A stretch of DNA of 64,000 nucleotides, taken from assembly GCA_002786025.1 (NCBI GenBank), contig NHNW01000035.1, positions 248,001-312,000 on the forward strand, in the 5' to 3' direction. The notes below the pieces were generated by a model. That model saw nothing but the letters and a program-made list of their open reading frames with translations, made no database searches and was not told the origin of the DNA. Positions 59,786-63,704 of this stretch are shown here, piece by piece. Made by a program: the position numbers and the translations under genes. The stretch's first letter is position 1. Every line of letters begins with the position of its first letter. Origin of the DNA: Zasmidium citrigriseum (Eukaryota > Ascomycota > Dothideomycetes > Mycosphaerellales > Mycosphaerellaceae).

Positions 59786-60457
59786 ATGGCAGCAACGAAA
59801 GCAGAAGGTCCTCTGGGCTTTGATGTGAATATAGCGGATCCAAAAGCGAGAATAGACGCCTATATCGACAATTATCGCAATGATCCAGATTATCAGGTAC
59901 TTCCGAGGCACACACCCACTACCATGAAGCTGACATGGCACAATGAAGGGCTTCGAAGGCAACATAATGCGCAACATGAAAGTCCTCTCCGTAAACCACC
60001 ACTCCGACTCATCCAGCCTCGTCACAACCCTCTTCGAACTCCCCGTCACCAAACAACTGTGCAGTCCCATGGACAACATGCACGGCGGCTGCGTGGCCAC
60101 CCTCGCCGACATGGCCACGACTATGGCCACGGCTCCCCTCGCACAAAAAGGCTTCTGGGAATTCGGAGGCCTTTCGAGGACGTTGAATGTGACGTATTTG
60201 AAACCAGTGAAGTTGGGGTATGTTGTGAGAGTGGAGTGTCAGGTTAGGAGTATTGGGAAGAGGCTTTGTGAGTTTGAGATGAGTGAGTGGTGATTGGGAT
60301 GAGGTTGCTGACGATTGGTGATAAAGCTGTGATTCAGTGTATTGTTCGAGAGAAAAGTACGGGCGAGATGTTGGCTTTGGCAGAACACGGGAAGAGTGCG
60401 CTGCAGGATCAACAGTTCCCAATGCAGATGACAGATGGTAAGAAGGGCAATCTGTAG
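59786..60457 (+). CDS. Hotdog-fold acyl-CoA thioesterase (THEM2/ACOT13-like), 191 aa
   Basis: Exons 59786-59896, 59949-60282 and 60327-60457; introns of 52 and 44 bp restore DPDYQ/GFEGNIMR and CEFEM/TVIQCIV. The core is NMHGGCVATLADMATTMA (the hotdog helix with the HGG turn and Asp), then the strands LSRTLNVTYLKPVKLGYVVR and VECQVRSIGKRLCEFE. This is the PaaI/ACOT13 arrangement, which hydrolyses acyl-CoA thioesters. The N-terminal ~50 residues are an extra extension without a clear targeting sequence. The ATG at 59786 is the first in the frame. Confidence 0.88.
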
Positions 60458-60580: not shown

Positions 60581-60766
60581 TTACTCGGCCATCTGAAGGA
60601 CACAAACAGGACCCTTCATCTGCCATGGCAAGAGCTTCGCCTGGATGACACAGACAGGACCCGGCGTCTGCCACGGAAGCAGTTGCTTCTGGATGACACA
60701 GATCTTTCCGCCGGTGATGATTGGGTACCTCTTTCCGAGGACTTCGTTGTTGTGTTGGACTGCCAT
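60581..60766 (-). CDS. Small CaaX-like repeat peptide, gene A, 61 aa
   Basis: A short leader (MAVQHNNEVLGKRYPIITGG) is followed by three related units: GGKICVIQ-KQLLPWQ, GPVCVIQ-AKLLPWQ and GPVCVLQ-MAE (end). Each unit centres on Cys-aliphatic-aliphatic-Gln, a CaaX-like tetrapeptide, but only the last one is near the C-terminus and it is followed by MAE. A dibasic KR lies in the leader. No signal peptide is present. Support for it being a gene: two paralogous neighbours with the same unit, the same ending (CVLQM-x-E), a matching TATA region ~100 bp upstream and CACGTG further up. Function unknown; a repeat-type peptide precursor is my best guess. Confidence 0.7.
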   Translation of the reverse strand: MAVQHNNEVLGKRYPIITGGKICVIQKQLLPWQTPGPVCVIQAKLLPWQMKGPVCVLQMAE

Positions 60767-60862
60767 ATTGTCTGGTGTTTGGTTTAGATGTGTTGCTGCT
60801 AGCAAGCGAATGTGATGTGTTTGGTTTCGGCGAGGGCAGGAAATGAGGATAGGCTGGGCGAC

Positions 60863-61023
60863 GAGCTATTTAAGTATCTTGGCTTCGTTCTGGTGGCAAT
60901 GGCCACGTGGGTTCCAGGCATAGAAAGTCCTTTCATGTCGAAATTAGAACCGCGGCAGTTGAAAGAGGCGAAAGGGGACTCGTGGAATGCATTTCAGGGT
61001 CGTTGGCCTTAGTATTGTTCTCA
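60863..61023 (-). promoter_or_regulatory. Promoter module of repeat-peptide gene A
   Basis: Read on the plus strand: gagctatttaagtat (60863-60877), CACGTG (60904-60909) and tattgttctc (61013-61022). The same three elements occur upstream of genes B and C. Confidence 0.6.
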
Positions 61024-61752
61024 GCATGAGGAGCGGGACTGATGACAAGAGGGCGGCTTCATTGTGGATTTTGAACAAAGACGATTGTCTGTCTTACAGT
61101 AACTCCAAGGGTGAGAAAAAATGACATCAAAGCGGCAAGGAACCTAGGCCCTACGTTTGGTTCGAGTAGTCGTACAATGGATTGCGATGCTCGGGAAGCA
61201 GGATATCCGGATTACACACATAGCCCATACAGAATTGTGAAGTCAGAGAGATTTTTCTGCTCTTGTCCAAAAAAGGAAGCTGCAACTGCCATTAGTTGCT
61301 TGAGCTAAAAAACTTCGCTGGCCGTGATCGACAAGGCTTGGTTCGATGAGGAAGTTGGTGCTCGTATTGCACGTGTAGGCCGGCCGAAGTAGGGCTTTCG
61401 AAGTGCTTCCAAGTTTCAGTGATCGATGTTGACACTGTAATGGTCTGCGCTTGCTGTTAATGCGCAGACGGTGCGGCCACGTGCTGTGCTAGTCTACTCA
61501 AGCGTGCCGTCACTTCCTTAATCTTCGACCAGAAGTAATCCTCATTGATGGAAAATTGGATTTTGACAACAAATGGCATGTAACATCGACACCGATGAAG
61601 CGATCATTTGACGTCGTCTACGAGCTTGCTCGGCGACCGATCACAATCGTCATGTGCAAAACATGTGCCAAGCAAATGTATAAGAAGGAACGATGGTAGA
61701 ACTTTCAAGCCTCTAACAACAAATTGTAACAGACTTCAGTCACAAGCCCAAG
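61024..61752. other. Intergenic region
   Basis: Between the promoter of gene A and the secreted protein gene. Short frames only. The stretch directly before 61753 (CAAC-rich, 61720-61750) looks like a 5' leader. Confidence 0.4.
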
Positions 61753-62282
61753 ATGAAGCTCGTTCGATTGACCCTCATGGCCGCTGCGGCCATCCTGGCT
61801 CATGCCCAACAAGACACATCCGGCAACACCCTTGCCGAGTTCGACTGTTCTTCTGCAACCTTCCCAGGTACGTTCAATACCCCTTCAATGCCATCGAACA
61901 TCAAATCTTCTAACCCCCTTCTCCAGCCGGCATCGATGGCGACCCGCCGCCAATCTCCCAATTCTCAAGCGCCGGCTCCGTGACCATCGACGGCCAAAAA
62001 GTCACCAACGTCAACTGCCAACGCGACCCCATCAATCCCGACAACGGCCACCTGGCATACTGCGTCTTCTCGGACAGCAGACTGGACGGAGGCTCCGTGT
62101 CAATCCATTTCAATTTCACTCCCGCTGGAGGAGAATGCGCGATGAACTTCGGATACAAGGGGACGTCGTATAGTACGGGAGGGAATGGCCAGCCTGATAC
62201 GACGCCGAGCTGTGCTACGTCGAAGTGTGGCGTGGAGGCGTTTTCTTGCGATGTGCAGGCCAAGTGTTACTTTAACTACTAG
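61753..62282 (+). CDS. Small secreted cysteine-rich protein, 156 aa
   Basis: Exons 61753-61867 and 61927-62282, 59-bp intron (GTACGT...CTCCAG) splitting an Ala codon (TFP/AGIDGDPPP). A signal peptide (MKLVRLTLMAAAAILAHA) precedes ~138 mature residues with eight Cys (FDC, VNC, AYC, GEC, PSC, SKC, FSC, AKC), enough for four disulphides. The middle is beta-rich (SVTIDGQKVTNVNC, GGSVSIHFNFTPAGGEC), and it ends in CYFNY. Size, Cys content and secretion fit fungal effectors or cell-wall proteins; I do not recognise a named family. It lies between two members of the repeat-peptide family but on the opposite strand. Confidence 0.82.
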
Positions 62283-62524
62283 TGGCGATGCTCGATCGTC
62301 GGGGGTCTGAAGGATACGAGAAGGGGAGATGAGGCATGTTCGATAGTTTGCGCAGTTCACTCTTTAAACCAATTTACCAAAGATCAGACTGGCGCTTCAA
62401 ATATGTTGAAACATTGCTTGACATGAAGATCAAAGGGGCAGTGGACCATTTATGATTGCCATCTATCTATCTAGACCTGAATGCCCACCCTCTGATTGTC
62501 CCGTCGACCCTACGTTCCGGTCGT

Positions 62525-62659
62525 CTACTCGTAGTTCATCTGAAGGACACAGCCGTACTTCCCCTTTCTGGAGGAATGCTGGAGAACACAGCCGTACTTT
62601 CCCTTCCTGGAGGAGTGCTGGAGCTCACAGCCGTATTTGCCGCCCTTTGCGTAGGTCAT
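62525..62659 (-). CDS. Small CaaX-like repeat peptide, gene B, 44 aa
   Basis: Nearly the whole protein is repeats: MTYA, then KGGKYGCELQHSSR, KGKYGCVLQHSSR and KGKYGCVLQMNYE. The 13-residue unit is bounded by basic RK pairs that could be processing sites. Each unit carries a CaaX-like C-(V/E)-L-Q. The ending CVLQMNYE parallels CVLQMAE of gene A. DNA of the units has diverged while the peptide is kept (AGG/AGA Arg, GTT/GTC Val, CAC/CAT His), which argues for selection on protein. No signal peptide. A TATA-like ctataagtat lies ~100 bp upstream. Confidence 0.68.
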   Translation of the reverse strand: MTYAKGGKYGCELQHSSRKGKYGCVLQHSSRKGKYGCVLQMNYE

Positions 62660-62755
62660 GTTGATTGTGCTGGAGTTGTTGGGGTTTGTTGAAGTCTCTG
62701 TTGAAGCTCGTGTTGATTGGATGAGATGAAGTCGGAAGAGGAGACGTTCATGATA

Positions 62756-62954
62756 GAGCTATAAGTATGATCAGTGGTCCTTTGAGAGGCATCACTTGGC
62801 ATACGGGGATATTAGCGGTTGCCACGTGGGCGGCTCAGGATCAATGCATGTTTACCCCTGACGAGTCTTGGTAGTCTTGGTATTGATTGAACAATGCCTC
62901 GATAGGATGAATGTGGGAGGCTGTGCTCTCTTGATATTGTTCTCAAAGACAAAG
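62756..62954 (-). promoter_or_regulatory. Promoter module of repeat-peptide gene B
   Basis: Plus-strand reading: gagctataagtat (62756-62768), CACGTG (62823-62828) and tattgttctcaaagacaaag (62935-62954). Spacing closely matches gene A. Confidence 0.6.
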
Positions 62955-63091
62955 CAACGGTCCATTTTTATCTCCTCTAGTCGTCTATCTAGCTAGGCCT
63001 GGATGCATATTCTCTTGACAGCCGTGCGTTCTGGCCGATGTCTCCATCTCCTTCTCCGAGAGCTAGCACTTGGACATTCTCGCCCCCGTCC

Positions 63092-63301
63092 CTAGAAAAG
63101 AGGAAGATCGCTGGCAATCGGCGAGCCTTGGACCGTGCACATGTATCCAGGAGGTGCCGACATCTGAAGGGCGCACATGTAACCGGGAGGCGCCGCCATG
63201 TGAAGAACGTTCGTGTATCCCGCTCCGTGGGACTGCAACTCACACATATACCCAGGAGGGGCTGCCATCTAAAGGACGCACATATAGCCTGGTGGTGTCA
63301 T
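63092..63301 (-). pseudogene. Repeat-peptide gene C, interrupted by a nonsense codon
   Basis: From ATG at 63301 the frame reads MTPPGYMCVL and then TAG (63269-63271), where genes A and B have CAG (Gln): a single C-to-T change. The frame then continues MAAPPGYMCELQ, a decayed unit SHGAGYTNVLH, MAAPPGYMCALQ, MSAPPGYMCTVQ and GSPIASDLPLF to TAG at 63092-63094. The 12-residue unit APPGYMC-x-L-Q differs from A and B outside the C-x-(L/V)-Q core. It may be a dead copy, may initiate at the ATG right after the stop (58 aa), or may rely on readthrough. Confidence 0.62.
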
Positions 63302-63454
63302 TTTGATCGTTGGGGTTGTTTGTGTTGAGAACCTGGCAGGCGAAGATGCTAGACATGTCAACTTCAATCGTTGGAGACGTATCGAATACTTACTTTGAAG
63401 GATCTGAGTTTCGAAGCGGTTGGGGAGAAGACCTGTCTCTGTTGGGACAGAACT

Positions 63455-63704
63455 GACGCTATAAGTAAATAGATGCAAGTGGCAATCAGGCTTTGACTTT
63501 CCATCCCTTGCTTTGGGATCGATAAGAGTGCATCAGTGGCTACGGGAAGAGTACCTCGGATCCTGAAGACTCCCGCATCTCTCGTTATACTTGGCATTGT
63601 CCTTGGCAAATGCCGATGTTGATGGAGATGCCGTGTTAGTATTGTCCTTAGAGACAAAGACGTCCTTTAGGTCTCGGCATGAACATGCGTTTGGCTGCCA
63701 CGTG
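63455..63704 (-). promoter_or_regulatory. Promoter module of repeat-peptide gene C
   Basis: Plus-strand reading: gacgctataagtaaat (63455-63470), tattgtccttagagacaaag (63641-63660) and CACGTG (63699-63704). The elements match B but their order is changed and spacing is longer. Confidence 0.5.

Follow-up and report, generated by a model that had tools for sequence, protein, structure and literature searches.

What is encoded by three tiny repeat genes clustered in the genome of Zasmidium citrigriseum (Mycosphaerellaceae, Dothideomycetes), and could they supply an a-type pheromone to a class of fungi in which none is recognised? The genes, here called A, B and C, lie on the minus strand at 60581-63301 of our window, the 64,000-nucleotide (nt) stretch of contig NHNW01000035.1 (assembly GCA_002786025.1, positions 248,001 to 312,000) that was analysed as a whole. 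Together they span 2.7 kb, and each encodes a small protein made of tandem units ending in C-a-a-Q, a form of CaaX box with Gln as X. With moderate confidence, we regard A, B and C as likely precursors of a-factor-type lipopeptides, in which each Cys is predicted to be farnesylated and each unit to be excised. As of 2023, Sordariomycetes were the only class of filamentous ascomycetes with a known a-factor, Leotiomycetes adding a candidate, and efforts in other ascomycete classes had, according to the same authors, not found it (PMC10569646; here and below, statements on published systems follow the available parts of the cited papers). Among the matches listed in a literature search (titles and abstract openings), no paper on a Dothideomycete a-factor appeared. 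If our reading is correct, the cluster would be the first a-factor candidate in Dothideomycetes; the genome keeps STE3 without a known ligand, and the cluster would fill a recognised pheromone gap beyond Sordariomycetes and Leotiomycetes.

The repeat structure of the three frames is directly visible. A first-pass annotation, made from the letters of this DNA alone, had reported three minus-strand repeat frames, and all three are found where it placed them (coordinates are collected in Table 1). Gene A carries CVIQ, CVIQ and CVLQ, the last two within a 16-amino-acid (aa) repeat that includes LLPWQ and GPVC, and gene B carries CELQ, CVLQ and CVLQ in a 13-aa repeat, GKYGCxLQHSSRK. Gene C comprises five units in total, the first ending at a TAG codon and the third reading GYTNVLH, with Asn replacing Cys. 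Each gene therefore holds three intact units, to which C adds the one ending at a stop and the degenerate one. Tandem Repeats Finder places one array in each of A, B and C, with periods of 48, 39 and 36. The annotation's statement that X is Gln throughout applies to 9 of the 11 units and fails for the stop-ended unit and the unit with His; likewise, its list of C units, CVL(stop), CELQ, CALQ and CTVQ, is accurate as far as it goes and omits the degenerate GYTNVLH.

Stop-to-stop frames with at least three copies of C-[VAILTESGM]-[VIL]-Q number three in the window, namely A, B, C and no others, versus none in 150 Markov-1 sequences of matching composition, in which frames with at least two motifs averaged 0.03; the motif set was picked after the finding was known, and these figures serve as a guide only. 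With a looser motif and stops permitted, 16 neighbouring pairs occur in 94 kb, six of them in A, B and C, and pairs as such are thus not rare. Stronger evidence for coding comes from the units themselves, compared across two units of A, three of B and five of C. The minimum changes between units are distributed 14/10/29 over codon positions 1/2/3 (29 of 53 at the third; one-sided binomial p = 0.0011), an excess that stems from B (0/1/6) and C (9/6/17). Pairwise over its 8-codon cores, gene B shows eight synonymous versus two non-synonymous codon differences in an intact frame. Across the four intact PPGYMC units of gene C, the six codons vary only at their third letters, with GGN using all four possibilities. 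This concentration at third positions suggests that B and C, at least, are translated; for gene A, which has no third-position excess of its own, the case for coding depends on the frame itself, the repeat and the resemblance to B. The substitution pattern had been proposed as a check on the first-pass reading, and it reveals codon-level constraint in B and C and none in A alone.

Kinship among the genes was judged from their flanks. Beyond the 3' ends of B and C lies a homologous stretch, and its local alignment score was reached by none of 1000 shuffles and by none of 1000 genomic stretches. On the 5' side, A and B show a weak resemblance, its score being reached in 47 of 1000 shuffles and in 5 of 1000 genomic stretches, and the remaining flank alignments (A-C and B-C at the 5' side, A-B and A-C at the 3' side) do not rise above chance. 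Genes A and B also share 15 identical bases, TGTGTCCTTCAGATG, at the last unit. A 15-letter pattern covering the codons of C-V-[LF]-Q-M fits 11 places in the genome, A and B being two of them, and its reversed-pattern control fits six; the other nine places were rejected as family members, given that their 3-kb loci contain no frame in which C-[VAILTESGM]-[VIL]-Q occurs twice. The paralogy asserted by the first-pass annotation is accordingly borne out for B and C through their 3' flanks, while A is linked by the motif, the 15 bases and the weak 5' match with B. Its broader claim that the frames are peptide precursors is supported in part, by the repeat peptides in small frames, by codon constraint in B and C and by B-C paralogy.

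The state of gene C introduces one alternative. The TAGATG junction between its first unit and the remainder (63269-63301) may reflect decay, a stop-and-restart arrangement or an intron acceptor; a TAG ending at 63269 would be an alternative putative acceptor, with the next exon starting at the ATG at 63268. Gene C appears partly decayed and is probably losing function. One could then view the whole cluster as a decaying relic of pheromone genes whose lineage has abandoned sex or shifted the role elsewhere, a scenario to which we assign a small probability. It draws on the TAG at the end of the first unit and the Cys-less third unit of C, on the lack of third-position bias in A, and on unisexual Huntiella species, whose a-factor paralogues include some closed by early stops (PMC10182648). 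Gene B, however, is clean in its substitutions and frame, and STE3 and STE2 are both retained.

We next consider known systems, beginning with the nearest. The a-factor genes of Huntiella (Ceratocystidaceae) are clustered paralogues encoding several near-identical 12-aa units, each ending in a CaaX-like box (PMC10182648). The present locus resembles them in its clustered small paralogues, its several units per protein and the early stop in some paralogues, with A the more weakly linked member of the cluster. Huntiella differs in having CpaX boxes, in the terminal boxes described, in belonging to the Sordariomycetes, and in a pre-box peptide that starts with Arg and is similar between genes (PMC10182648); here, in contrast, Gln stands at X, even the last unit falls short of the C-terminus and each gene has a core of its own. 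The only mention of Kex2 found in the available text of the Huntiella paper concerns alpha-factor (PMC10182648). HPP1 of Trichoderma reesei, essential for male fertility, is likewise small, lacks a signal sequence and contains three CaaX-like copies, from which up to three prenylated peptides were suggested to arise (PMC3068285). Its copies read (LI)GC(TS)VM with Met as X, one of them is exactly C-terminal and two Kex2 sites are present, unlike the arrangement here; orthologues were reported in 2010 from Hypocreales only (PMC3068285). The rhodotorucine A precursor of Rhodosporidium toruloides consists of tandem farnesyl peptides split by CaaX-like spacers (PMC3068285), and red yeasts carry several RHA genes (PMC3236058). 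Compared by description only, such a spacer would correspond in A, B and C to the three-residue stretch behind each Cys. The rhodotorucine A spacer ends in Lys rather than Gln, and it comes from a basidiomycete yeast. By analogy, the Huntiella clusters appear nearest in anatomy and rhodotorucine A appears alike in its mode of working. Rhodotorucine A and the Trichoderma protein had been named as parallels in the first-pass annotation; both are real, and Huntiella, which it did not name, is closer still.

Single-copy a-factors offer a further comparison. Those of Sordariomycetes, together with 87 Leotiomycete candidates, have a GY motif near the CaaX box (PMC10569646). Genes A, B and C resemble them as small genes of a kind that often goes unannotated (PMC10569646), and gene C alone also has Gly-Tyr near Cys, two residues before it; the sequence is GYMC in C and KYGC in B, and neither form occurs in A. 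At 61, 44 and 58 aa, the proteins of A, B and C fall within the size of single-copy a-factors (at most 100 aa). Those proteins differ in possessing one CaaX or CpaX box exactly at the C-terminus, mostly CTVM in Leotiomycetes, and a Ser/Thr-rich N-terminus (PMC10569646). Several CaaX-like units in a small protein lacking a signal peptide (judged by hydropathy only), as expected of repetitive a-factors, are found in A, B and C; a last copy that forms a C-terminal CaaX box is found in none of them, and no terminal CaaX or CpaX end of the single-copy kind is present either. Because this terminal box was sought and is absent, we do not file A, B and C as h-type or single-copy a-factors. If confirmed, the fungal class, Gln at X in most units, the missing terminal box and three cores at one locus would be new.

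Features of secretion and processing separate the cluster from a different group of fungal precursors. Near the start, the highest 11-residue hydropathy is 1.61 in A, -0.17 in B and 0.96 in C, versus 2.37 in the secreted-looking product of gene D, which lies within the cluster. By this simple count, none of the three has an N-terminal stretch as hydrophobic as that of D, in agreement with the first-pass claim that signal peptides are lacking. No KR or RR stands between units of A, B or C; one KR precedes the first unit of A, and RK occurs twice in B, the only gene with RK between its units. The lack of both a strongly hydrophobic start and KR/RR between units is contrary to the layout of alpha-factor and Kex2-repeat precursors and fits a-factor. 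Kex2-processed repeat proteins of the ustiloxin type likewise contain several short core repeats in one fungal precursor but combine them with an endoplasmic reticulum (ER) signal peptide and Kex2 sites between repeats (PMC7329392), and A, B and C display neither.

These observations bear upon a second alternative, namely that the units are released and act outside the cell as unprenylated repeat peptides of a new ribosomal type, with Cys engaged in disulphides or other bonds. We consider this unlikely, though it has substance: multi-core, Kex2-processed repeat precursors are widespread in fungi (PMC7329392), and the Cys-rich, secreted-looking gene D sits between A and B. Yet that class is defined by a signal peptide and Kex2 sites, and here neither a signal-like start nor KR/RR between units is seen. 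Moreover, disulphides would not require the a-a-Gln that follows Cys in nine of the eleven units.

Returning to farnesylated lipopeptides, we infer prenylation, cleavage, export and a mating function, and propose the following pathway. The three genes would be translated, the sole step with support here, and an endoprotease would cut after Gln, exposing a C-terminal CaaQ. Farnesyltransferase would then act on the exposed CaaQ as it does on a-factor, a CaaX protease would remove a-a-Gln, a methyltransferase would then act, and a Ste6-type ATP-binding cassette (ABC) exporter would secrete the peptides. Known a-factor exits the cell through an ABC exporter. STE3 would be the likeliest receiver, in mating or other cell-to-cell signalling. 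The predicted products of later units, 8-13 residues long, would be KQLLPWQTPGPVC and AKLLPWQMKGPVC from A, HSSRKGKYGC from B, and MTPPGYMC, MAAPPGYMC and MSAPPGYMC from C. Gln is acceptable as X to yeast farnesyltransferase, as Ydj1 with its CASQ end illustrates (PMC9231725). If the pathway operates as proposed, it raises a clean question of enzymology, namely how an internal CaaX box is freed. Going further, we tentatively suggest that this cluster might be the missing a-type mating pheromone of Dothideomycetes, with an internal CaaQ box in every unit including the last, prenylatable only once cut behind Gln, and with one locus yielding three different farnesyl peptides. Screens that demand a terminal CaaX would overlook a multi-copy gene whose boxes are internal and end in Gln, and the pattern therefore offers a new search route.

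Several observations weigh against such precursors. Farnesyltransferase requires a free CaaX end, and boxes that are not freed by a protease would consequently be no substrate for prenylation. The proteins end in MAE (A), MNYE (B) and GSPIASDLPLF (C), that is, 3, 4 and 11 residues after the last Gln, and the first-pass remark that the cores are not at the exact C-terminus is correct for all three. A possible escape for gene A would be a hidden terminal exon, with the GTAAGA at its stop as donor; inspection by eye yielded no CaaX end this way. Terminal boxes exist in HPP1 and in the Huntiella proteins described (PMC3068285, PMC10182648), and there is none here. The residues following Gln (K, A, M, H, H, M, S, M, G) have nothing in common, Kex2 sites between units are absent, and by eye the N-termini are not Ser/Thr-rich. 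The CASQ end of Ydj1 is farnesylated yet afterwards not cleaved (PMC9231725). Taken alone, gene A distributes its changes 5/3/6, with no third-position excess. It would be odd for three cores to face one STE3 unless two genes have other signalling roles or are being lost; the stop and the degenerate unit of gene C suggest that it is among those being lost. The 94 kb surrounding the cluster contain no small CaaX-ended frame. Nor is the Sordariomycete a-factor neighbourhood present: cyanate lyase is on C63 and EBP2 on C116, the cluster being on C78. Finally, the homologue search, run against 5.8 billion proteins, returned one and three candidates, of which none reached E <= 10, a result that says little because tiny genes are often unannotated; the database does, however, contain conserved proteins of sister species, as the window's SET-domain protein was matched there, its nearest named records being two from Zasmidium cellare (67 and 66%), followed by Dothistroma (58%), Lecanosticta (55%) and Pseudocercospora musae (53%), while two proteins without a species name are closer (71 and 75%).

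The internal position of the motif also favours a third alternative, in which the gene products are repeat microproteins that stay inside the cell, binding metals or membranes for instance, and the resemblance to CaaX is accidental. Standard prenylation does not apply to an internal motif as it stands, no processing site is visible, and gene C gives a weak zinc-knuckle match (E 0.0034; 17.6 bits, below the 27-bit cut-off; 7 residues). Above cut-off, no Pfam or NCBIfam family was found for A, B or C. We nevertheless hold this reading to be improbable: C-a-a-Q is kept although unit length and flanks differ between the genes, as would be expected of a processing or modification signal more than of a fold, and the similarly built, clustered Huntiella genes have been read as a-factor genes (PMC10182648).

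The lipopeptide reading presupposes a receiver, and the genome provides one. STE3 is found at one place in the genome, its profile matched end to end in two pieces, and STE2 is also present. A MAT alpha-box match at C46:470240-470374 (30.5 bits versus a cut-off of 28.1; 45 of 194 positions) indicates that the sequenced strain carries MAT1-1. Given STE3, STE2 and the MAT1-1 alpha-box, a ligand for STE3 is expected.

Could that ligand be a classic a-factor elsewhere in the genome? No terminus of the form GYC[VAITM][VIM]M-stop occurs in the whole genome. C-T-V-M or C-V-[VIM]-M before TRR is encoded at 8 + 21 places (controls 7 and 12), 8 of these 29 being without a stop codon. In the remaining 21, the ten residues preceding the box never include Gly-Tyr and none is of classic make-up, introns and other boxes being outside this search. 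Many of these 21 boxes close frames under 30 aa, and several resemble, by eye, what we take to be ends of Ras-, Rho- or Ykt6-type proteins or long frames. A Gly/Tyr/Gln-rich frame around C2:889292-889306, 99 aa from its first ATG, ends in KCCGLCVVM, a real CaaX end; its last 60 aa match no Pfam family, and it is a possible rival CaaX protein. The 10 kb around EBP2 contain no small CaaX-ended frame, and the 15 kb around cyanate lyase contain one, of 51 aa, ending in CLLS.

Searches for further members within the 44.4-Mb genome, which detect close copies only, gave no second copy of A or B with protein queries at E <= 10, and the gene C query returned itself and its own first unit (with one TAG inside) and no other member. 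A match to the C query on C72 was rejected as chance-level (E 1.14, 32%, one stop). Rfam has no family in the window, and the RNA structure of gene B is ordinary (z 0.66).

Table 1. Positions of the genes, flanking stretches and upstream boxes of the cluster, in window coordinates (UTR, untranslated region).
Feature	Position	Strand	Description
Gene A	60581..60766	-	61-aa frame MAVQHNNEVLGKRYPIITGGKICVIQKQLLPWQTPGPVCVIQAKLLPWQMKGPVCVLQMAE; ATG at 60766, stop ending at 60581; 3 C-a-a-Q units
CACGTGGC box of A	60902..60909	-	begins 143 nt upstream of ATG
Gene D	61753-62282 (exons 61753-61867, 61927-62282)	+	between A and B; 156 aa, hydrophobic start, 8 Cys
3' flank stretch of gene B	62413..62493	-	homologous to gene C 3' flank; local alignment score 43
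Gene B	62525..62659	-	44-aa frame MTYAKGGKYGCELQHSSRKGKYGCVLQHSSRKGKYGCVLQMNYE; 3 units
CACGTGGC box of B	62821..62828	-	begins 169 nt upstream of ATG
3' flank stretch of gene C	62936..63015	-	homologous to gene B 3' flank; local alignment score 43
Gene C, longer frame	63092..63268	-	58 aa; CELQ, degenerate NVLH, CALQ, CTVQ; 11-12-aa repeats with PPGYMC
Gene C, first unit	63269..63301	-	MTPPGYMCVL, then TAG; ATG of longer frame (63268) directly after
Candidate 5'-UTR intron of gene C	63333..63393	-	61 nt; GTAAGT donor 63393, TTGAC branch-like site 63361, CCAG acceptor
CACGTGGC box of C	63697..63704	-	begins 403 nt upstream of first ATG

The upstream regions contain one shared element. CACGTGGC is the sole 8-mer common to all three 420-nt upstream stretches, and four of its seven copies in 74 kb fall between 60909 and 63704 (counted after the fact), the fourth in the cluster lying 270 nt upstream of the gene D ATG. 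Since a shared 8-mer occurs in 5.65% of random triples, we treat CACGTGGC as a lead and not as evidence.

Among the neighbouring genes, D matches no Pfam family and, judging by its layout, would be an effector-like small secreted protein. A 4HBT thioesterase lies on one side of the cluster, at 59943-60293. To the right of the cluster lies, as a useful anchor for synteny, a large P-type ATPase frame (DKTGTLT; L002:3004-7290, minus strand), which we take to be Drs2-like.

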